Source: Actinomycetota bacterium (GTDB lineage Bacteria > Actinomycetota > CADDZG01 > WHSQ01). Taken from it: a stretch of 49,241 bases of DNA. Position numbers and translations under genes: made by a program. The notes below the pieces were generated by a model. It had not been told where the DNA came from and ran no database searches. It was given only the letters and a program-made list of their open reading frames with translations. This document shows, in pieces, positions 4 to 42,956 of this stretch; the first letter of the stretch is position 1; the number at the start of each line of letters is the position of its first letter. The stretch covers positions 397,106 through 446,346 of the forward strand of contig JAUJPD010000001.1 in assembly GCA_030447315.1 (NCBI GenBank). Reading direction: 5' to 3'.

Positions 4-94
4 CGGAGGCGGACGGGAATCGAACCCGCCCACCGGGATTAGCCGGCGCACCGGTTTTGAAGACCGGGAGGGACACCAGTCCCCTTTCGCCTCC
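4..94 (-). tRNA. selC: tRNA-Sec (selenocysteine, anticodon UCA)
   Basis: Read on the minus strand this folds as a long tRNA of 91 nt. The acceptor is GGAGGCG paired with CGCCTCC plus discriminator G. The D stem is GGGAC/GTCCC with a very short TGGT loop. The anticodon stem is CCGGT/ACCGG around loop CTTCAAA, giving anticodon TCA. A long variable arm with a CCGG pairing and a T loop TTCGATT follow. A UCA anticodon, long variable arm and compact D loop together are specific to tRNA-Sec. CCA is not encoded (the next three bases read CTA). This tRNA is charged by SelA and delivered to in-frame UGA by SelB, so selA/selB/selD and at least one selenoprotein gene are expected elsewhere. None is visible here. 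Confidence 0.93.
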
Positions 95-2235: not shown

Positions 2236-2957
2236 TGCTCGGATGAACCCCTTCCGTTGCCCGCGTACGGATGCTCGAGCTCTAGCTCCGGGTGCGACGC
2301 GTCGGTGAACTCGCGGAACACACCGGTGACCATGAACGAGATCTGCTCGCCCACGTCGACCGCGTGGTCGCCGAAACGCTCCAGATACCGAGCCACCAGG
2401 ACGAGCTTCGTGGCCCATTCGAAGGCCTCTTCATCACCCGCGTATGTCTTGAGGTCGCCCAGCATCCCCCGGTTGAGCCGGTCCAGCACCGAGTCCTTGG
2501 GAGGCAGCTGCTGGGCCAGCTCGTCGCTGCGCTGAGCGAACGCCGACAAGGCCAGGTCGATCATCTCTGCCGCCCGGGCACCCATCTCGTTCAGGCGATC
2601 CATCAGGGGCGAGTCGTGAGGATAGGGGTGCCGGTTCAAGACGAACTTGGCGATGTTCACGCAGAGGTCACCCATCCTCTCCACGTGCATGTTCGAGTGA
2701 AGGATGGCGCTCACCAGCCTGAGGTCGCCTGCTACCGGCGCCTGCAAAGCCAGCAGGTTCAGGACCCTGGCCTGCGTCGCCAGGTAGACGTCATCGACGG
2801 AGTCGTCGCCGTCGATCACCTCTTGGGCCAGTTGATCGTCGCGGTCATTGAGCGCCTTCATCACGCGTTCGAGCTGCTGGCGCACCAGCCGTCCCTCCGC
2901 CAGCAGCCGGCTTTCGGCGGCTTCTAGCTCGTCGTGGAAGCTGGTTCGAACCATCAC
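2232..2957 (-). CDS. phoU: phosphate signalling protein PhoU (copy 1)
   Basis: A 241-aa all-helical cytoplasmic protein. The N-terminus RTSFHDELEAAESRLL is the standard PhoU opening. The two metal-binding signatures, one per three-helix bundle, are visible as HVERMGDLCVNIAKF and YLERFGDHAVDVGEQ. PhoU links the state of the Pst transporter to the PhoR kinase and restrains the Pho regulon when phosphate is sufficient. The gene is divergent from phoR, sharing a 158-bp promoter region with Pho-box-like repeats on its side. A second phoU lies at 5006-5617, next to pstB. Start ATG at 2957 (a second ATG follows directly). The frame is intact. Confidence 0.93.
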   Translation of the reverse strand: MMVRTSFHDELEAAESRLLAEGRLVRQQLERVMKALNDRDDQLAQEVIDGDDSVDDVYLATQARVLNLLALQAPVAGDLRLVSAILHSNMHVERMGDLCVNIAKFVLNRHPYPHDSPLMDRLNEMGARAAEMIDLALSAFAQRSDELAQQLPPKDSVLDRLNRGMLGDLKTYAGDEEAFEWATKLVLVARYLERFGDHAVDVGEQISFMVTGVFREFTDASHPELELEHPYAGNGRGSSEQ

Positions 2958-2984
2958 TGAACCCTACCTCCGCTCCCTGGACAG

Positions 2985-3017
2985 AAACGTTCGAATGAGA
3001 GATGAAATCGGTGTGAA
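2985..3017 (-). promoter_or_regulatory. Pho-box-like triple repeat upstream of phoU
   Basis: On the minus strand three consecutive 11-nt units begin TTCA (3017), TTCA (3006) and TTCG (2995). Eleven-nucleotide-spaced direct repeats with a TTCA-type core are the signature of PhoB/PhoP/RegX3 binding sites in actinobacteria. The block sits about 30-60 bp upstream of the phoU start codon, a suitable place for activation by the RegX3 protein encoded at 4296. Confidence 0.6.
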
Positions 3018-3115
3018 CATTGCCGGAAATGTGGCTCTCAACAGGGCAAGGAGCAGAGATAGCAAGGGGGTGCCCACTAGGATTCTCTGGAGAATGAGGC
3101 GGATGTGAACGCAGC

Positions 3116-4276
3116 GTGACCGAGATCGCCTTGCTGGCCCTGGGCCTTGCCATCGGCTTGACCATCGGGTTCCTCTTGTTCCGCAGGGGCCAAGCGCACG
3201 GCCCCCCCACCTCGCTTCGCGCCAGCGAGCCCAGCGACGCACCTTCGGTCACGCCGGAGCCGTGGGCGCTGCTCGATCAGATCTGTGAGGGCGTCCTGCT
3301 GCTGGACGACCGCCTGCGTCCCATCCTCGCCAACGCCGCCGCCGGGCGGATCCTCGGGCTCCAGGGCACAGACCTACCGGCCAGGCTCCCGTCGGAAGAG
3401 GTGGTGGTGGTCGCCCGAAGCGCTCTGGAGGATGGCACCGAGGTCGAGGAGCTGCTGACGCTCTGGTACCCGACTCGCTCCAGGATCAAAGCCCGGGCCA
3501 TGCCGCTGGGGGCCGGCAACAACGTGCTCTTGATCCTGCAAGACGTGACCGAGGAATCGCTCTCCCAGCAGATCCGGCGCGAATTCGTCGCGCACGCATC
3601 ACACGAGCTGAAAACACCGGTCGCGAGCCTGCAGGTCCTGGCCGAAGCCGTGCACCAAGCGGCTGAGGACGATCCCGCTGCTGTGGGCCGCTTCTCACAC
3701 AAGATGGTTACAGAGGCAACCCGGCTGGGGCGCCTGATCAGCGACCTGTTGGATCTCTCGAAGCTGGAGGACCCCGCGAGGATCCCGGACGAGCCCGCCG
3801 ACGTGTCCGAGATCGCTCGCTCGGAAGTCGCCCAGGCGCGAACGCTCGCCGACGCGAAGCATATGGAGATCAAAACCTCCATCGAAACCGACGTATGGGT
3901 GCTTGGAGATGAGCAGCAACTGGGCCTGATGATCCGCAACCTTCTCGAGAACGCGGTCCGCTACACCCCCGAGAGAGGTCGCCTCTCGATCGAGGTGGGC
4001 ATCGTCGCCGGCAGTGCCGTCCTCAGCGTCTCGGATGACGGCATAGGCATCCCCCTCGAAGCTCAAGGAAGGATCTTCGAGCGTTTCTACCGTGTCGACA
4101 GGGCGAGGAGCCGCGACCGCGGTGGAACGGGCCTCGGACTGGCGATCGTCAAGCACGTTGCCGAGCTACACGGTGGAGACGTCAGTCTGCGAAGTCAGCT
4201 CGGTGAGGGGTCGACTTTCACGATCCGGATCCCTGCCCTTCCACAACAACCAGAAGCCGAATCGATAGCGGGATGA
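3116..4276 (+). CDS. phoR: phosphate-sensing histidine kinase PhoR/SenX3
   Basis: This 386-aa kinase has one N-terminal membrane helix (residues 3-22) and a PAS-like domain (about 50-145, DQICEGVLLLDDRLRPI). HisKA follows with phospho-acceptor His163 in ASHELKTP. The ATPase domain has an N box at LLENAVRYTP (Asn279), the G1 box DDGIGIP (from Asp307) and the G2 box GTGLGLAIV (337-345). A single TM helix with a PAS domain and no large extracellular sensor is the PhoR/SenX3 layout, in which phosphate status is read through Pst and PhoU. It starts at GTG 3116, is divergent from phoU, and is followed 19 bp later by its response regulator. The frame is intact. Confidence 0.93.
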   Translation: MTEIALLALGLAIGLTIGFLLFRRGQAHGPPTSLRASEPSDAPSVTPEPWALLDQICEGVLLLDDRLRPILANAAAGRILGLQGTDLPARLPSEEVVVVARSALEDGTEVEELLTLWYPTRSRIKARAMPLGAGNNVLLILQDVTEESLSQQIRREFVAHASHELKTPVASLQVLAEAVHQAAEDDPAAVGRFSHKMVTEATRLGRLISDLLDLSKLEDPARIPDEPADVSEIARSEVAQARTLADAKHMEIKTSIETDVWVLGDEQQLGLMIRNLLENAVRYTPERGRLSIEVGIVAGSAVLSVSDDGIGIPLEAQGRIFERFYRVDRARSRDRGGTGLGLAIVKHVAELHGGDVSLRSQLGEGSTFTIRIPALPQQPEAESIAG

Positions 4277-8529: not shown

Positions 8530-9616
8530 AACGGGCTTGTACGACGGGCAGGGCGGTCGGGCTTCCCGCGAACCCGTCTCCAGGCTCTCCCAAACACCTT
8601 CCGACTCGGCCACGGCGTCCTCGGTTAGGTCCACGTAGCCGGCTTCGGACACCGAGGCGAGACCCTCTTCGGAAAGATAGAAGTCGACGTAGGCGGCGAC
8701 CGCCGGGTTCTCCTCGGCCTTCGCTTTGTTCACGTAGATGAAGAGGTCGCGGGCGATGGGATATTCGCCGTTGCGATGGTCTCGTCGGTGGGCTCCACGC
8801 AACCTGCGCCTTCCTCTTCTTCAACGGGGATCGCGGACCGTGTCGAGCTCCTTCGAAGAAGGCATAGCCGACCCATCCCAACGATGTCGCGTTCCCCGAG
8901 ATGCCCTCGATGATCACGTTGTCGTCTGCTGAGGACTGATAGTCCGGGCGAACGAAGGGTCCGTCCTCGGGCTGCTTGCGCTCGTCGACCGCGATCCCCT
9001 CCAGCACGATCTCGACGAACGAGTCATACGTCCCGGATTCCTCTCCGGGAGCCGTGATGGTGAGCTCGACGTCGGGATAGTCCCCGCTCCCGCCGACCTC
9101 CTTGCCGAGCGTGTTGGCGTCAGACCAGTTCTCGAAACCCTCGGACTCGGGCCCCAGTAGTGCGTAGAGGTCCTGGAAGCTGAGGCATTCCACCTGGGTG
9201 TTGTCCTTGGAGGTGAGGACGCTGATGCCGTCGACCGCTACTTTGAGCTCGACGAACTCGATCCCATTCTTCTCACAAGCGGGGATCTCCTCTTCGGGGT
9301 CGATCGGACGAGAAGCGTCTGCGATGTCAGTGTCACCGTTGCAGAAGAGCTCGAAGCCGTCCCCCGTACCCGGGCCGTCGACGGAGATCTGGACACCGGG
9401 GTTCTGCGAGGAGAACTTCTCGGCGTTCGCCGCCGAGATCGGCTCTACCGTCGAAGAACCAGAGACGGCGATGGAACCGGAGAGAGCCTCCTCGCTCCCG
9501 TCTTCGGTGGCCCCCGGTGTGTCCGTCCCTTCCTCGGGTGCGCAAGCTGCGCCGACCAAAGCGATCAGCACGACCGGGATGATGATGCGCCAAGGTCTGG
9601 CTGACAAACTGCTCAT
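8530..9616 (-). CDS. pstS: phosphate-binding lipoprotein PstS (frameshifted near C-terminus)
   Basis: The extracytoplasmic phosphate receptor of the Pst importer. The N-terminus RIIIPVVLIALVGAACAPEE is a lipoprotein signal with the lipidated Cys after VGAA. The mature part has the PstS signature IAVSGSSTVEPISAANAEKF, the phosphate-contacting GTGDGFELFCNGDTDIADAS, and ESGTYDSFVEIVL. The frame shifts near GYAFFEEG; the C-terminal lobe (NGEYPIARDLFIYVNK, AAYVDFYLSEEGLASV, AGYVDLTEDAV) is in another frame. The exact stop is unresolved because no frame closes cleanly before the hairpin at 8503. ATG 9616 has a strong GGAGGAG site. A Pho-box-like pair lies about 105 bp upstream. Confidence 0.9.
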
Positions 9617-9719
9617 ACGGCTTGCTCCTCCTTCTCTGCGCTCACAAGAGCACTGTGGCCTCCCCGCGGAAGCCGCTCGACGGCAGGAAGCTAGCAACGG
9701 GATGTTGCCCTCTCGCATC

Positions 9720-9742
9720 CGCTTCATGAACTTCACGTGAAC
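9720..9742 (-). promoter_or_regulatory. Pho-box-like repeats upstream of pstS
   Basis: On the minus strand two 11-nt units beginning TTCA start at 9741 and 9730. The first contains the palindrome TTCACGTGAA. The pair faces pstS and has the same spacing as the block before phoU, fitting RegX3/PhoP-type activation. Confidence 0.6.
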
Positions 9743-9810
9743 ATCGCCGACCGGGACCTGGACGGGAGATTTTCATGCCGTCCTTGCTTTAACGTTTCCT
9801 GCGAAGAGCC

Positions 9811-9830
9811 TCACCAGAGTTCACCAGACC
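9811..9830 (+). repeat. tandem TCACCAGA direct repeat (possible Pho half-sites)
   Basis: TCACCAGA occurs at 9811 and again at 9821, the second within AGTTCACC, which resembles the actinobacterial Pho-box half-site GTTCACC. Spacing is 10 nt here, not 11, and one base could be missing given the indel rate. The repeat lies roughly 40-60 bp before the candidate small RNA at 9868 and could control it. Confidence 0.35.
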
Positions 9831-9867
9831 GAGAAGCCCCGTTAACCGGTAGTTAGCAATAGGTCGC

Positions 9868-9963
9868 TAGCTTCGGAAGGACTCAGACAGCCGAGTGCTC
9901 CTTCCCCGGCCGCTCGGCTCAAAGCCGAAGAGAGGGCCTCACATCCCCCGAGGCCCTCTCTTT
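9868..9963 (+). ncRNA. candidate small RNA with three hairpins and intrinsic terminator
   Basis: No gene covers this stretch, yet it folds into three consecutive hairpins. The first is 9875-9905 (GGAAGGA with TCCTTCC, inner ACTC with GAGT). The second is 9914-9928 (TCGGCT with AGCCGA, 3-nt loop). The third is a 12-bp perfect stem at 9929-9961 with a C-rich loop ACATCCCCC followed by TTC. The last looks like a factor-independent terminator on the plus strand, but no plus-strand gene precedes it, so an independent short transcript of about 95 nt is the simplest reading. C-rich loops recall the actinobacterial 6C RNA, whose loops carry six C residues; here only one loop has a run of five, so that identity is tentative. 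Confidence 0.45.
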
Positions 9964-9971
9964 CGTGGCGA

Positions 9972-9993
9972 TACACATTGCGTTCACATTGCG
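9972..9993 (+). promoter_or_regulatory. Pho-box-like perfect 11-nt tandem repeat upstream of ppk
   Basis: TACACATTGCG (9972-9982) is followed directly by TTCACATTGCG (9983-9993), two units differing at one base, ending 21 bp before the ppk start codon. The spacing and TTCA core match the blocks before phoU and pstS. The proximity to the ATG means the transcript leader would be short. Confidence 0.6.
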
Positions 9994-10014
9994 AGGCTAG
10001 ATTTTTGCGCCCTT

Positions 10015-12065
10015 ATGGATGAGACACGCTTCATCAACCGCGAGCTGTCGTGGGTCGACTTCAACGAACGCGGTCCTCTGCCTCGCAGAGGATCCGACGC
10101 ACTCTCTTGGAGAGAGCCAAGTTCCTGGCCATCTTCTGCAGCAACCTGGACGAGTTCTACATGGTTCGAGTGGCCGGTCTCAAGAGGCAGGCAGCGGCCG
10201 AGGATCTCCAACCCGGTCGGTGGACGGTATGACCCCCAAGGAACAGCTCCGAGCGCTCGCCCAGAAGGTCCAGCCGTTGGTGCAGCGCCACGCCGGCATC
10301 TTCAGCGAAGAGGTCGTGCCGGTTTCTCGGCCGAGACCGGGGTCAGCATCCTGCGTTGGAAGGAGCTTGACGACGACCAGCGCGAGACGCTCGATCAGTT
10401 CTTCCGCGAACGCATCTTCCCGGTGGTCACCCTCTCGCCCTCGATCCCGGCCACCCCTTCCCCTACATCTCGAACCTGTCGCTGAACCTGGCCGTGCTCG
10501 TTCGCGACCCGGTCGACAGGAGGATCCACTTCGCCCGCGTCAAGGTTCCCCCGGTCCTTCCTAGATTCATCGAGTTGTCCCCCGACGAGATCTTCGTCCC
10601 GGTCGAAGACGTGATCGCCGCGAACCTCACCGAGCTCTTTCCCTGGGATGGAGATCCTCGAGCACAGACCCTTCCGAGTAACGCAACGCCGACGTCGAGG
10701 TCGAAGACGACGAGGCGGAAGATCTGATGTTGGCCTTGGAGGTGGAGCTACGCAAGCGTCGCTTCTCGCCGGCCGTCCGGCTGGAGGTCGAGACCAACAC
10801 GCCGCCGCACATCCTCGACCTGCTGATGCGTGAGCTGGAAGTAGGAGAGGACGACGTCCACGTGATCCCTGGATTGCTGGATCTGCGCGGCTTGATGGAC
10901 CTCTACGACCTCGATCGACCGGAGCTGAAAGACGATCCCTTCGTGCCGGACCCATGTCGATCTGGCGACCGCGGAGGAGGAAACGGTTGACATCTTCGGT
11001 GTCCTCGGCGAGACGGACGTCCTCGTTCACCATCCGTACGACTCCTTCAAGACGAGCGTTCAGCGCTTCATCGAACACGCCGCGCAAGATCCCGGGGTCC
11101 TGGCGATCAAACAGACGCTCTATCGCACTTCCGGAGGAAGCCCCATCGTCGAGGCGCTGATCGATGCGGCCGAGGCCGGCAAGCAGGTCGTCGTGTTGGT
11201 CGAGATCAAAGCCCGCTTCGACGAGCGCGCCAACATCAACTGGGCACGCACCCTGGAACGAGCCGGATGCCACGTCGTCTATGGGGTGGTCGGTCTGAAG
11301 ACCCATTCGAAGCTCTGCCTGGTGGTGCGCCAAGAGGAAACAAGCTGCGCCGCTACGTACATGTCGGAACCGGTAACTACAACCCCACGACCGCTCGTAT
11401 CTACGAGGATCTAGGTCTTCTCACCGCCGATCCTCAGATCGGGTCCGATGTGAGCCACCTGTTCAACTATCTGACCGGCTATTCGAGAGAGACCCGCTAC
11501 GGGTCATTGATCGTGGCGCCCGACGCTATGAGAGAGCGGTGATCCTGGACCTGATCAACGAGGAGACCGCGATCGCGCGTTCTGGGCAACAAGCACGCAT
11601 CGTGCTGAAACTGAACAGCCTCGTCGACGAACAGATCATCGAGGGGTTGTACGAAGCGGCGCAGGCCGGAGTCTCCGTCGATCTGGTGGTCCGCGGGATA
11701 TGCGTGCTACGTCCGGGCGTCCCGAATCTCAGCGAGAGCATCCGGGTGAGATCGATCTTGGGCCGCTTCCTGGAGCATTCCCGGATCTTCTACTTCCGCC
11801 ACCGCGGCGACGACGAACAGGTGTACGTCGGCAGCGCGGACATGATGCACAGGAACCTCGATCGGCGCGTGGAAGCCCTCGTGCACATCCGCTCGCCGAA
11901 GATCCGGGCCGAGCTACTGGACACGCTCGAGCTCGCACTCGCCGACAACGACTCCTCCTGGGAGCTCGACGCCTCGGCTTCCTGGACCAAGTGGGTGCGC
12001 GCCGAAGGGAGGACTGTGTGAATCTGCAGAAGTCGTTGATGAAGCGGCGATCTCCCGATGCATGA
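10015..12065 (+). CDS. ppk1: polyphosphate kinase 1 (frameshifted)
   Basis: PPK1 makes polyphosphate from ATP. The N-terminal domain opens with [17 protein letters not shown] and continues in another frame with [19 protein letters not shown] and VRVAGLKRQ. Later, in order: a head domain ending [73 protein letters not shown], which holds the catalytic His; and [19 protein letters not shown]. The C-terminal domain has [19 protein letters not shown] with the second active-site His, and [14 protein letters not shown]. About six frame changes interrupt it; the last, near 12020, replaces a short end with [15 protein letters not shown]. The stop overlaps the next ATG by eight bases. All domains are present. 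Confidence 0.9.
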
Positions 12066-19924: not shown

Positions 19925-21222
19925 TTAGCGCCAGGCCCCTGATCGCGCAGGTCCTCCCGGCCTTGTCGCCGCCGCCCCGTCGCCCACCTTGCTGGTTGAC
20001 GAAAAGGGTCCGCCCGTCGGGCGAGAAGCGTGCCCGCAGAACTCGTTATCCAAGGCGTTGGCCTCCTCGAAGTCGAAGATGCGCCCGTCTTTGGTGAGGC
20101 CGCGCACGAACTGGGCGGCATTTGTCCTCGCACAGAAAGATGTCGCCGGTAAGAGGTGCAACGGTCGGGTTGTCGGGGCTCTCCGCCTTTCCTCGGACTT
20201 GGACTCGGAAGATGAGGCGAGGTCCTCGCCTTCGGCTGGTACTCCCATATCTGACCGAGCCTGGCCTGCCTCCCGACGTGCAGTCAGAAGCGCAGCATCC
20301 TCCCGTTGCCCTTCCAGATGCCCTCCTCGCGAGCGAAGATGGCTGCCTCTTTCTCCTGGGCCTGGCGACGGACTGCGTGTCGGTGCTTCTATCCGGCTCG
20401 TCGATGTCACCACTTCACCGGGAAGCTCCAGACGACCGGCCATCCTTGCGCGTGTCTGCCGGGCTGGCCCTGACGACCAGCCGCCTGCAGCCGGCCGGTG
20501 CTCTCGGCGAGGTCTCCGGCTGGGTCGGTTTCGTGTCCGGGAGATAGCGGCAAAAGGAGGAATCTCCTTGATCCTCGGTCTCGCAGAGGGCTCCGTCATG
20601 CCACGCAACAGCCTCATGGACGAAGCGACCCGCCGCGACGATCGGCTCCGGCTTCGTTGCCCTTTGCGACGAGCTGGGACCTCGAAGTTGTAGCCGTGCC
20701 TGTTCGCCGTCGACGAACTGCTCTTCTGGAGGTAACCCAACCGCCCCACGGCATCTTTCCGCCCGCACAGTTCGTGATCGTGCCCCCGAGCACCGGCGTA
20801 AGTCTCTGACGATCTCCAAACGCTCGTTGACCACCAACTTGGTGCAGCCGCCTGCCAGCGGCGCCAGGTCGTATCGCATCTCATTCCGAACAACAACGTA
20901 TCTCGGTAAAGACCAGAGCCCGGTTCTCGTGATTGCGGATCAAGATGGCGTTGCCGTTGGCCCTCTGAACGCGCCCATCCGTCGAACGAGCTCGGTGTTG
21001 GGCCGTCGGTCGCGGGGTCGCCTCGCAGCAGATGACCTTGAAGCTGAATCGCTTGGGAAGCGACAGCTCGCCCTTATCCACGAGGGGGCCGTAGCCGGGA
21101 GCTTCAAGCGAGACTCCGGCCGCCACCCGTTGACTGAACGCACTGAGCGGGCCCGCAAGCGCCAGCCCGCCCGCCGTTGCTGCGCTTTCCTTGACTATGA
21201 AGTCTCTCCTGCTAACCACCAT
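19925..21222 (-). CDS. phoX: alkaline phosphatase PhoX, copy 2 (heavily frameshifted)
   Basis: The start ATG at 21222 opens VVSRRDFIVKESAATAGG, a clear Tat signal with SRRDF, then LALAGPLSAFS. Downstream, in changing frames: GYGPLVDKGELSLPKRFSFK, NAILIRNHE, LAGGCTKLVV, TNCAGG-like text, GSHLRS, DIFLCEDKC and KDGRIFDF. EANALDNEFCGHA and a final stretch resembling DRTLFVNQQG follow, then a short tail to TAA 19925. The Asn/Glu- and Cys-containing C-terminal strings are those of secreted PhoX. It is shorter (about 430 aa) than copy 1 and belongs to a different PhoX subgroup, so it is not a recent duplicate. It converges with phoD. Confidence 0.72.
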
Positions 21223-21338
21223 GCGATCCACCTTCGGGTAGGACGTTGATGTGCACATAGACAGTAGGAACTACTGGATTAACGAGGCCTTACAAAGGGC
21301 GAACGAGCGATGAATCTTCGTCGCATGAGCCTCATCAG

Positions 21339-39323: not shown

Positions 39324-42300
39324 CTATCGCTCGCAGCGGATCTTGGAGTCTCGGCCTGCGCCGGCCCGGCAGGTGTCGCGGCCGCTGCCACCGTCGAGGC
39401 GGTCGCTGCCGCGTCCGCCCCTCAGAAGGTCCCTGCCACGATTGCCTCGCAAGAGGTCGTTGCCGCTGGCGCCGATGATCGTGTCGTTGCCGCCGCGGCC
39501 TCGGATCCTGTCGTCGCCGCCCCGGCCACATATGACGTCGTCGCCGCTCGTGCCGTTGAGGACGTTGTTCTTTGCGTTGCCCGTGATCGTGCAGCGGGTT
39601 CCGCTTCCGCCGCCCCAGTGAACGATCGAGTTGTCCGATCTCTCGTTGGCGTCGAACACGTCGTTGTCGTCTTGGTCCACCCACGCCAGGATCTGCGAAT
39701 CTCCGCTGCTGCTGGAGGTGACACCGAAGACGAACTTGCCGCCGTCGTTGGTCTCGCCCTCCGTGTGATGACTGTCGATGCCGTCCTCTTGGTGGATACC
39801 CTCGTCGAACTGGTTAAAGGACGCAGAGTGCTCGCCCCGGTCCGGGAACCGCCGCGGGGAACCATCCTCCAGATCACAGAACTCGGGATCGGTGTCGGTG
39901 GGGCCGGTGAGGTGAACGTCGACATTCACGTCGGCGATCCCGAGGCCCGAGCCGTCATTGACGGACAGCTCGAACCTCTTGCACTCGGCGGTCTTTCCAG
40001 CCGTCTCCGCCGGCTCGAGCGAGACGACGGGGTTGGCCTCGAAGCCGAAGACCCGGTGAGCGTCGCCCGACTGCCGGATCCTGCCGACCTCACGGCCCTC
40101 GATCGTCTGACATCCCGAGGATTCGCAGATGAAAGACAGTGCAGCGATACCCGTCACCTCCGCCGGGAAGTCTTTGGTGCCGTCGCCGTCCGGATCCTGC
40201 AGGCTGCACTTGCCCGCGAAGTTCTGCGTCGCTCCGCCCCCCGACAGGGTCACGGAGCCGCACCTGATCCAGTTGGCGCTGGAGCGAGACTCACGGGCCG
40301 CCGTCTTGGTGTAGTAGAACTCGACCCCCCGTGCCGCCGCGCTCGCGACCCCCTCGACCGTGGTCTCTCCCTTGTCGAAAGGTGCCACTGCTGAATCCAG
40401 AGGGCGAGTGATCTCGGCGGTCTCCCGGGTGTTGTTGACGACCACGGCGCGGTCTTCACGCTTGTCGGTGCCGGTTATCTGGGCCCGGAGCGTGTAGCTG
40501 CCGTCAGGGACGTTGACGTCCCAGAAGAACTCGAAGGCATCGGAGTCACCGACCCGGCTCGCGTCGCCGATCTTCGTGAACGGCCCACTCGATGACGAGC
40601 CGATGAAGTACTCGACGCCCGGAACGACATCGGGCAGGTCGACCCGGCTCACGATATGGAAGCGCTCGTCGGCGTCACGCCTCCTGGAGATGGTGTCTCC
40701 TGAGCCCCCGCCGTAGCCCGACGGGTTGACGAAACGGACCTCGGCGTCTTGTGCCGTGGCCGCCGACTTGTTGCTGGCATTACCGGCCGGCTCGCTGGAT
40801 CCCTGAACGTCGTTGTCCTGGTTCTTCTCGCCATCGATCCAGGCGGTGACCTGCGTGGTGCCGCTGGCGGTTGCGATGAGCCCGAACACGAAGTTGCCCT
40901 CGCCGTCCGTCTCACCCTCGGTGTGCTGAAGCTGGGGGACATCCGGCGAGCTGCTCTTGTGCGAGGACTCACCGGCATCTTCGGGATCGTGCTCCCCCTG
41001 ATCCGGAGCGCGACGCGGGGTACTGGTGTCCAGCTCGCAGAAGTCCAGGTCGTTGTTGGGTCCCGACGCATGGACGTCGACGTTCACGTTCGGCAGGACG
41101 GCGGTTCCCGCCCTTGCGCGCGCGATGAACTTGGTGCACTCGCCCACTGCGGACGAGGTGGCCCTCGGAACGATCGACAGCGACGCAGGCGCCGGAAGCC
41201 ATTGCGCTCTCAAGCTTCCCAATACCTCGCCGGATTCAAGGATGTCGTCTTCGGGCGCACGGACATCGGTCTCGGTGGCTATGGGCTCGTCATCGACCCA
41301 CGCGGTGATCTCGGTGAAACCGGGGCTCCTGGAGAACACGAAGAACCGGAAGATCCCGGGGCCGAACCTGAAGGGCGTTCCCGACGGCGAGGCAGTGTCC
41401 AACCCCGTGCCGGCCAGGCTTTCGATGTGCTTGATGTCGGGTCCGCCGGGAACGTTGTGGTCGCCCTGGGCTTCGGCCGGGTCCCCACGATCGTCTCCTG
41501 GCACGTCGATGAAGTCCGGACAATTCCTGGCGCTCTCTTTCTCATGAGAGGCCCCGTCCGGGTCCTTGTAGTTGCTGTCGGAGCTGGACGTGTTCGAGTT
41601 CTGGTCGGAGCCGAAACCCACCTGGTCGTCGGGGCCCTGGATGTGGACATCCAGGTTGGCCCCTTGGACGGGCCGACCCAGCTGGTCCCTGACGATCGCG
41701 TCGAACCTGAGACAGCCGTTGGGGGCATTCGGGGAAGTCGCTGCTCGCGGCGGGACCGCCTGTCGCCGCTGGCTCGTCGGCTGGATCGCGGTCCCGCCCA
41801 CGTCGACGCCTCTAAGCTCGACCGTCATCTGCTCTACCCGCTGAAGGTATGGCTGAACGCGGTGAGCATCCGCGGAGTCCTGAGTGAACGCTGCCGTCGT
41901 GACGAACTCGGGACTGTCGTCCTCGATCGCTACGGCTGCTATGGCGGTGACTTGCGACGGAAGGTCCTTGCCGCTGAGACCGCACGTTGCGGCAAAGGGC
42001 CGGGTGTTGGTCTCTGAGTTCAAGGCGCCCAGACGCACTTGAGCACAGTTGGTGTACTTGACCGGAGATCCCGGCGCGCTCGTCGAGTAGAAGACGAAGA
42101 CCCGCTGGGAATCACCGCTCGCCGAGCCCTCGACGACGGTTCTGAACAAGCCGACCTTGGGCTTGAAGAACCCCAGCGGGCCGTTGTTGGTCGGAAAGGA
42201 GATCTCCGCGGTTTCCTCGCCTTGGTCGATCTCCGCGGGCGTCTCGTCGCTGGCGACCTCCTCGAATCCCCCCGGGGTGGCCTGGAACAACCGCACCTTG

Positions 42301-42782
42301 AAGGTGCCGCCGCCAGAAAGGGCGTCGGGGATGTCCCAGAAGAACTCCCAGGTGTCGCTGGATCCGGACACCTGATTGAGGGTTCCGACGGTAATCTCGT
42401 TCAGCCCCGTCGGCTGGAAATAAGCCTCCACGACGGCGTTGGCCGGCGCATCGCGCGTCACCGCCACGACGTGATACTGCCGATCGAATCCGTCGAACTT
42501 GTCGCTCAGCTTGGGGGGATCCCCGCTGCCCGGCGGACGCGGGGGCGCCGTGAGATTGGGGTCGTACGCAGGACTCGGGTTGAGCAGCTTGATCGCGGGA
42601 CCCGTCTCGGGGGCCGGGCTCTCGGTCGCCTGAGCGAACACCACTGCCCCCCCTGCACCGGAGGAAGCCCCGATGAGGCCGAGCAACATCACCAGCAGCG
42701 AAGCCACGAAGGCCAACACGAAGCGGGCCACAGCCTGCGGATGTTGGGCCCTCATCACCGTCACGTTCGAGAACTTTTTCAC
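39324..42782 (-). CDS. modular exported protein C, 1152 aa, with RTX-type C-terminus
   Basis: The largest intact ORF in the window. GTG 42782 with an AGGAGGT site gives a signal peptide (ARFVLAFVASLLVMLLGLIG, mature after about residue 50). Unit 1: IKLLNPSPAYDPNL (module N), ETAEISFPTNNGPLGFF with VFYSTSAPGSPV and ADAHRVQPY (module X). Two Big-1-like modules follow: LGRPVQGANLDVHIQGP with KHIES and ITAWVDDE, then VNVDVHASGPNNDLDFC with PDQGEH, QHTEGETD, FVFGL and QVTAWIDGE. Unit 2: VRFVNPSGYGGGSGD, FEFFWDVNVPDG, ETAEITRPLDS, GDAHRVFGF, VNVDVHLTGP, PDRGEH, HHTEGETN, ILAWVDQDDND. It ends in eight RTX-like nonapeptides. Extracellular; probably Ca-dependent folding and secretion. Function unknown. 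Confidence 0.87.
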   Translation of the reverse strand: MKKFSNVTVMRAQHPQAVARFVLAFVASLLVMLLGLIGASSGAGGAVVFAQATESPAPETGPAIKLLNPSPAYDPNLTAPPRPPGSGDPPKLSDKFDGFDRQYHVVAVTRDAPANAVVEAYFQPTGLNEITVGTLNQVSGSSDTWEFFWDIPDALSGGGTFKVRLFQATPGGFEEVASDETPAEIDQGEETAEISFPTNNGPLGFFKPKVGLFRTVVEGSASGDSQRVFVFYSTSAPGSPVKYTNCAQVRLGALNSETNTRPFAATCGLSGKDLPSQVTAIAAVAIEDDSPEFVTTAAFTQDSADAHRVQPYLQRVEQMTVELRGVDVGGTAIQPTSQRRQAVPPRAATSPNAPNGCLRFDAIVRDQLGRPVQGANLDVHIQGPDDQVGFGSDQNSNTSSSDSNYKDPDGASHEKESARNCPDFIDVPGDDRGDPAEAQGDHNVPGGPDIKHIESLAGTGLDTASPSGTPFRFGPGIFRFFVFSRSPGFTEITAWVDDEPIATETDVRAPEDDILESGEVLGSLRAQWLPAPASLSIVPRATSSAVGECTKFIARARAGTAVLPNVNVDVHASGPNNDLDFCELDTSTPRRAPDQGEHDPEDAGESSHKSSSPDVPQLQHTEGETDGEGNFVFGLIATASGTTQVTAWIDGEKNQDNDVQGSSEPAGNASNKSAATAQDAEVRFVNPSGYGGGSGDTISRRRDADERFHIVSRVDLPDVVPGVEYFIGSSSSGPFTKIGDASRVGDSDAFEFFWDVNVPDGSYTLRAQITGTDKREDRAVVVNNTRETAEITRPLDSAVAPFDKGETTVEGVASAAARGVEFYYTKTAARESRSSANWIRCGSVTLSGGGATQNFAGKCSLQDPDGDGTKDFPAEVTGIAALSFICESSGCQTIEGREVGRIRQSGDAHRVFGFEANPVVSLEPAETAGKTAECKRFELSVNDGSGLGIADVNVDVHLTGPTDTDPEFCDLEDGSPRRFPDRGEHSASFNQFDEGIHQEDGIDSHHTEGETNDGGKFVFGVTSSSSGDSQILAWVDQDDNDVFDANERSDNSIVHWGGGSGTRCTITGNAKNNVLNGTSGDDVICGRGGDDRIRGRGGNDTIIGASGNDLLRGNRGRDLLRGGRGSDRLDGGSGRDTCRAGAGRDSKIRCER
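39327..39590 (-). repeat. RTX-like nonapeptide repeats at the C-terminus of protein C
   Basis: About 88 residues with eight nonapeptides of the form G-x-x-G-x-D-x-x-x, for example GRGGDDRIR, GRGGNDTII and GGSGRDTCR. They occur once, only in protein C. Such repeats bind Ca2+ between turns of a beta-roll. In Gram-negatives they signal type I secretion, but here the protein has a signal peptide, so they are more likely a Ca-stabilised terminal domain. Confidence 0.85.
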
Positions 42783-42956
42783 CGACACCTCCTGGAAGGG
42801 CACTACCGAAGAATGAGTGGAACTGGTTTGGTTCTAAGAGAGATCCGCGTCCACTGAGTATGGCTGAGGGGCCGTTCGGGAGCCACTACTCTCCGTAAGG
42901 ACCGCCACATCCACTCAAACGTTGCACGAGGGCTCAAAGTTCCCGCCGGGACGAAA

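Follow-up and report, generated by a model that had tools for sequence, protein, structure and literature searches.

The response to phosphate starvation is among the best known in bacteria, and RyhB is an example of a small RNA that spares a nutrient. According to the accessible parts of two reports, the 6C (B11) RNA carries C-rich loops that repress mRNAs with G tracts (PMC10470900, PMC12395582). In Corynebacterium glutamicum, 6C RNA increases about two-fold upon mitomycin treatment, as stated in the available part of the source (PMC6789036). In the titles and abstract beginnings of the open-licence literature, no Pho-controlled small RNA of Actinobacteria is announced; this is weak evidence, since subscription papers are mostly missing there.

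We analyzed a stretch of 49,241 nt of an Actinomycetota genome (G000:C15:397106-446346), here called the window. A preliminary description had proposed a phosphate-linked small RNA between pstS and ppk, and this is indeed the best-supported reading of the element, given the Pho-type promoter, the covariation of both hairpins, and the presence of the element as an independent unit in 9 of the 16 family genomes. We put the probability at roughly 0.7 that positions 9820 to 9963 constitute an independent small-RNA gene, which is controlled by the phosphate starvation regulator and whose C-rich loops repress mRNAs with G-rich sites. As far as the accessible parts of the sources go, the candidate RNA and 6C/B11 RNA are alike in size (about 75 to 100 nt) and in having two hairpins with C-rich loops, the last of which serves (presumably, in the candidate RNA) as the terminator, whereas B11 has a −10 element of the sigma-A type (TATAGT) and the candidate RNA has a Pho-type promoter instead (PMC10470900, PMC12395582).

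The phosphate gene cluster and its promoters

The element is located in a cluster of phosphate genes. The minus strand carries phoU (2232 to 2957), pieces of the pst permease, and pstS (ATG at 9616). On the plus strand are a PhoR/PnpS-type kinase gene (3116 to 4276), whose matches lie below the cutoffs of the PhoR and PnpS models, and ppk (ATG at about 10015), followed by a CYTH-domain gene. The candidate RNA lies 50 nt upstream of ppk on the same strand. Since pstS is on the minus strand from 9616 and ppk on the plus strand from about 10015, no plus-strand gene directly precedes the element, in agreement with the preliminary description. Between about 7000 and 12000, the pst and ppk genes are split over several frames, a sign of possible indel errors in the assembly, which could also affect the promoter spacings. 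Elsewhere, the window contains a selenocysteine tRNA gene (5 to 94, minus strand; RF01852, 81.8 bits) and an ORF of 1159 aa (39324 to 42803, minus strand), the C-terminal end of which resembles, by eye, glycine-rich calcium-binding repeats.

The TCACCAGA repeats to which an activator had been suggested to bind are present at 9811 to 9818 and 9821 to 9828, 10 bp apart. The second of them corresponds to a Pho-type box, TTCACCA (9820 to 9826, plus strand; unit score, 9.0), 48 nt before a predicted −10 box of the small RNA, TAGCTT (9868 to 9873, plus strand). On the same strand, a weaker box, TTAACCG (9842 to 9848; unit score, only 0.7), lies 26 nt before the −10 box, and a possible third one, TTAGCAA (9853 to 9859; unit score, 0.0), which agrees with TTCAY at three of five positions, lies 15 nt before it. 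The pstS Pho promoter (9688 to 9741, minus strand) has boxes 48 and 37 nt before its −10 box, TAGCTT, and has GCTAGCTT in common with the −10 region of the small RNA. Downstream of the candidate RNA, ppk has a separate Pho-type promoter (9972 to 10003, plus strand), with boxes at 26 and 15 and the −10 box TAGATT.

Similar arrangements were found in relatives. Paired TTCA-type boxes with an 11-nt spacing were detected in 37 of 56 pstS loci, a set that includes duplicates of one genome and loci cut short upstream; the first box of the pair lies 48 nt upstream of a −10 box of the TA or TT type. The pair was present at all 18 loci from class genomes and at 19 of the 38 from the genome_contigs set. 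At family ppk loci, inspection by eye revealed TTCAC 26 nt before TAnnnT in 5 of 10 cases, sometimes with a second box at 15. The offsets 48, 37, 26, and 15 form an 11-nt lattice that is common to the pstS, ppk, and small RNA promoters. TTCAY units 11 nt apart presumably correspond to what is named the PHO box; the description as a lattice originates in the present analysis.

The lattice promoter model was built from pstS and ppk sites of relatives only (27 units and 14 −10 boxes, with no window sequence); the lattice was chosen after the window site had been seen, while its offsets derive from pstS and ppk. The model ranked the pstS (score, 34.1) and ppk (23.0) promoters first and second in the window and the small RNA site (−10 box at 9868, plus strand) third among about 98,400 positions, with a score of 21.5. 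No position in 30 simulated windows scored at least 21.4, and 23 other lattice shifts (−9 to +14) gave zero to two sites of that score each. The fourth site (20.5) lies just upstream of phoU on the minus strand, with boxes 26 and 15 nt before AACGTT at 2991, and a second site is found at 3061 (15.2). These Pho-like sites upstream of phoU (2957 to 3061) are divergent from the PhoR-type kinase gene.

By full pstS matrices, the small RNA site scored low: with 54 columns derived from ten family promoters, it reached −16.05 and was the tenth of the window sites listed, and with a matrix from 25 promoters, it reached −8.1 and was outside the ten sites listed. The main reason for the low scores is the lack of a box at 37. 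Genome-wide, TTCAY-N43-TAnnnT was not enriched over a control pattern. The small RNA promoter differs in its choice of boxes, having those at 48 and 26 but none at 37, whereas pstS uses 48 and 37 and ppk uses 26 and sometimes 15. Judged from sequence, the candidate site is in phase with TAnnnT as are the pstS and ppk sites of relatives, and it combines the TTCAY unit, the 11-nt lattice, and the TAnnnT box that mark Pho-regulon promoters there.

Structure and recurrence of the candidate RNA

The RNA had been proposed to start at 9868. This position was wrong: 9868 to 9873 is the predicted −10 box, and the start should therefore be at about 9880. The predicted small RNA is about 84 nt long (9880 to 9963, plus strand; model match, 9880 to 9966), both ends being predictions. 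The three hairpins described previously were seen in the fold of 9868 to 9963 (−47.9 kcal/mol, compared with an average of −31.66 for shuffled sequences; z = −4.68; stability reached by none of 200 shuffles), but this fold needs bases inside the predicted −10 box. From each of 11 start points (9874 to 9884), the minimum-energy fold always had two main hairpins, and the fold of 9880 to 9966 had a z score of −5.25, again with none of 200 shuffles as stable.

Hairpin 1 (9889 to 9919, plus strand) comprises helices 1 and 2 and exposes the C-rich loop CUCCUUCCCCGG (9898 to 9909). Hairpin 2 (9928 to 9962, plus strand), the presumed terminator, corresponds to helix 3, with the loop ACAUCCCCC at 9941 to 9949. 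Its perfect 13-bp stem with the C-rich loop ACATCCCCC is present as reported. The terminator, previously described as strong, is not a textbook one, its T tract being weak and consisting of CTCTCTTTC only. A terminator scan of 9500 to 10200 listed none; the scan has a loop limit of 8, and the loop of hairpin 2 has 9 nt. A small ORF was rejected, as ATG is absent from 9874 to 10014 and the frame of the GTG at 9895 is open into ppk.

At an E value of 0.001, the only BLASTN match of 9740 to 10030 among 100 relatives was to the own genome. With 9805 to 9966 and 24 class genomes, only short matches (E of 0.011 or worse) were obtained besides the self-match. A dispersed repeat was rejected, the own genome giving the self-match and two weak places. 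The pairwise alignment of the window RNA with G003 was equaled by 7 of 1,000 shuffles; repeats gave 2, 3, and 8 of 1,000 (window RNA shuffled) and 0, 6, and 8 of 1,000 (G003 shuffled), and were superseded by covariance models.

The covariance model R1, built from the window RNA only, detected matches in G001, which is of the same genus (44.3 bits; E = 6.6e-8 per genome), in G009 (34.3 bits; E = 2.1e-6 in 213 kb, at a place missed by the genome-level R1 search), in G013 (26 bits; E = 0.0032), and in G018 (25.6 bits; E = 0.0047). Pho-type promoters were found upstream of the matches in G000, G001, G009, and G013. No Pho promoter was found at the other R1 matches inspected (G018, G023, G014, G020, G021, contig C25 of G012, and a second match in G001). 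Alignment A5 and the model R2 contain only the four promoter-backed sequences and leave out the other R1 matches; since these four were picked after the Pho promoters had been seen, the promoter was part of the choice.

R2 yielded 73 matches at an E value of 10 in the 24 class genomes. Promoter scoring covered the 30 matches with loci and left out the 43 without a locus; the 60 nt upstream of each of the 30 were scored with the unchanged Pho lattice model. Nine matches had a Pho score of 15.3 to 33.7 just upstream, and the other 21 scored 7.8 or less. The nine promoter-backed loci belong to G000, G001, G003, G004, G005, G007, G009, G012, and G013; in the other seven of the 16 family genomes, some of which are incomplete, no promoter-backed match was found. 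Each of these promoters is the best plus-strand site among the 3,045 to 3,088 positions of its locus, except in the window locus, where it is the second-best. Outside the four training sequences, a promoter was present at 5 of 26 R2 matches (P = 8e-7), and two of the 26 had already been seen without a promoter among the R1 matches; the background rate was 0.0068 Pho sites per 70-nt stretch, found sites included. When G003, noticed earlier, was also excluded, the count was 4 of 25 (P = 2e-5).

In the nine loci, which were selected by a total score into which the boxes at 48 and 26 both count, at least four of five TTCAY matches were found at offset 48 in 9/9, at 26 in 9/9, at 37 in 0/9, and at 15 in 4/9. 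Among the remaining offsets from 10 to 47, boxes occurred only at 20 (2/9).

A nine-sequence covariance model (R3), applied to 296 genomes with stricter filters, recovered eight of the nine loci (G005 was missing). Further R3 matches were in G014 (E = 0.055) and, outside the family, in three genomes (E = 0.02 to 0.025). No Pho promoter was present at these matches (G014, G081, G273, and G288).

The stems are conserved in relatives, and both hairpins covary: in the nine-sequence alignment A6, which was fitted to the model and thereby favors a covariation signal, changes on both sides are seen at 20 of 24 base pairs, and 92.9% of cells are paired. None of 500 shuffles reached any of five measures, and slid structures gave 44 to 59%. 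When folded singly from their predicted starts, all nine RNAs formed hairpins with C-rich loops, and UCCCC was present in loop 1 at every locus. Hairpin 2 of G005 (loop CACCCC) falls beyond the model match, and the T tract of the second G003 hairpin is absent altogether.

The RNA is flanked by pstS and ppk in G000, pstS and phoX in G001, proA and ppk in G003, obg and nadD in G004, and proA and nadD in G007, G012, and G013. In G005 it lies near a dnaK-type gene, and in G009 it has obg and ppk on its two sides and is oriented away from ppk. The assignments of proA and nadD rest on Aldedh and CTP_transf_like matches and on inspection by eye (proA of G007 and G013 by eye only). The window also contains a PhoX-like ORF (20881 to 21258, minus strand) with 57% identity over 105 aa to the phoX adjoining the RNA in G001; a TTCAY-N43-TACTGT match starting at 21314 (minus strand) at this ORF is outside the 20 best sites listed for the lattice model. 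The promoter of the candidate RNA, its structure, its recurrence in relatives, and its independence from neighbor genes are supported by computation.

Relation to 6C RNA, ppk, and terminators

The resemblance to 6C RNA that had been noted extends to the architecture but not to family membership. Folds and the alignment of the nine loci revealed two consecutive hairpins with C-rich loops, as in 6C RNA. The Rfam 6C model (RF01066) had no match in the window at its gathering score (47 bits), none in 9600 to 10100 at an E value of 10, and none in the nine loci or the own genome at an E value of 1. While about six or more C residues are expected in both 6C loops, those of the window RNA have runs of four and five, and runs of six are reached in only some relatives. 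By this membership test, the candidate RNA is outside the 6C family as far as sequence models tell. It is unlikely to be a strongly diverged true 6C member or paralogue that was brought under Pho control and does not form a separate family.

The two C-rich-loop hairpins, the second being the presumed terminator as in the accessible descriptions of 6C/B11, are consistent with such a descent. So is a weak R3 match in G273 (36.6 bits; E = 0.025) to an RNA whose loops carry C8 and C7; this leaves room for a deep relation to 6C. That RNA (L209, 1501 to 1592; G273:C51:31121-31212) has two hairpins and is 6C-like by eye, and it was unreported by the Rfam 6C model at an E value of 1. Apart from the failed RF01066 searches and the shorter C runs, it speaks against a 6C descent that R3 had no match at an E value of 1 in the RF01066 loci L125 to L129. 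Furthermore, the 6C matches below the cutoff of 47 bits in G003 (L127, G003:C154:6230-6287; 38.2 bits) and G007 (L128, G007:C21:217323-217391; 32.8 bits) are located at places other than that of the Pho RNA.

Alternatively, the element could be the 5′ leader of ppk, starting at about 9880, with hairpin 2 as an attenuator controlling readthrough into ppk. Its location in the window fits this view, as does G003, where ppk likewise follows the element immediately and in the same orientation. We consider a leader quite improbable, because a separate Pho-type promoter for ppk follows the hairpins in the window, the RNA of G009 is directed away from ppk, and the flanks shown in G001, G004, G005, G007, G012, and G013 hold other genes and no ppk. 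A fixed position and orientation upstream of ppk was not found among the nine loci.

It is very improbable that the hairpins do nothing but terminate transcription or insulate two divergent promoters, perhaps on behalf of a minus-strand transcript as the preliminary description had considered, and have no RNA function of their own. In favor of such a role, the 13-bp stem is symmetrical, and perfect stems of at least 9 bp occur nine times in the window, this one included; of the others, three were inspected by eye (24696, 37298, and 42957) and lie at or near gene ends. Many model matches in relatives that have no Pho promoter also resemble ordinary terminators. A terminator role alone would, however, leave unexplained why a Pho-type promoter immediately precedes the element, why the first hairpin covaries, why the UCCCC loop is kept in all nine loci, and why the RNA recurs at unrelated loci. 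The differing neighbors and orientation argue against both a ppk leader and a plain gene-end terminator and in favor of a stand-alone, Pho-induced small RNA.

Proposed function of the Pho-linked small RNA

For the stand-alone small RNA, we propose that under phosphate scarcity a PhoP/PhoB-type response regulator would bind the TTCAY boxes. Transcription would start at about 9880 and end at hairpin 2; the product, about 84 nt long, would form two stable hairpins with a C-rich loop in each. By base pairing of these loops with G-rich Shine-Dalgarno regions, the RNA may block the translation of target mRNAs. Repression by loop pairing and induction by starvation are proposed by analogy with B11/6C RNA as portrayed in the accessible parts of its sources, and the candidate RNA would be the phosphate-side counterpart of that RNA. 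We infer its transcription, the direct binding of the regulator, the sign of regulation, the existence of targets, and their repression. A small seed search within the window gave no convincing target. The proposed logic is like that of RyhB-like small RNAs, in which a nutrient regulator controls a translation-repressing RNA; the likeness is one of logic alone, and the nutrient of RyhB is different from the phosphate of the candidate RNA.

The chances are about even that these small RNAs belong to a new family, induced by Pho and sparing phosphate, whose members repress mRNAs with G-rich sites by their C-rich loops, have a promoter class of their own, and are of separate 6C-type origin or recruitment. 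The promoter class would be defined by boxes 48 and 26 nt upstream of the −10 box, a spacing of two helical turns. As part of this new-family reading, different stress regulators in Actinobacteria would each have acquired C-loop RNAs of the 6C type, by separate origin or recruitment.

The promoter signature and the covariance model allow direct testing of targets and relatives. If the reading is true, a second, differently controlled C-loop RNA would be available for comparison with 6C/B11. The presence of the same kind of RNA at other genome places in relatives points to a regulator of the phosphate-shortage response that has not been described before, and a conserved Pho-controlled small RNA would, if true, give the Pho regulon a posttranscriptional arm.
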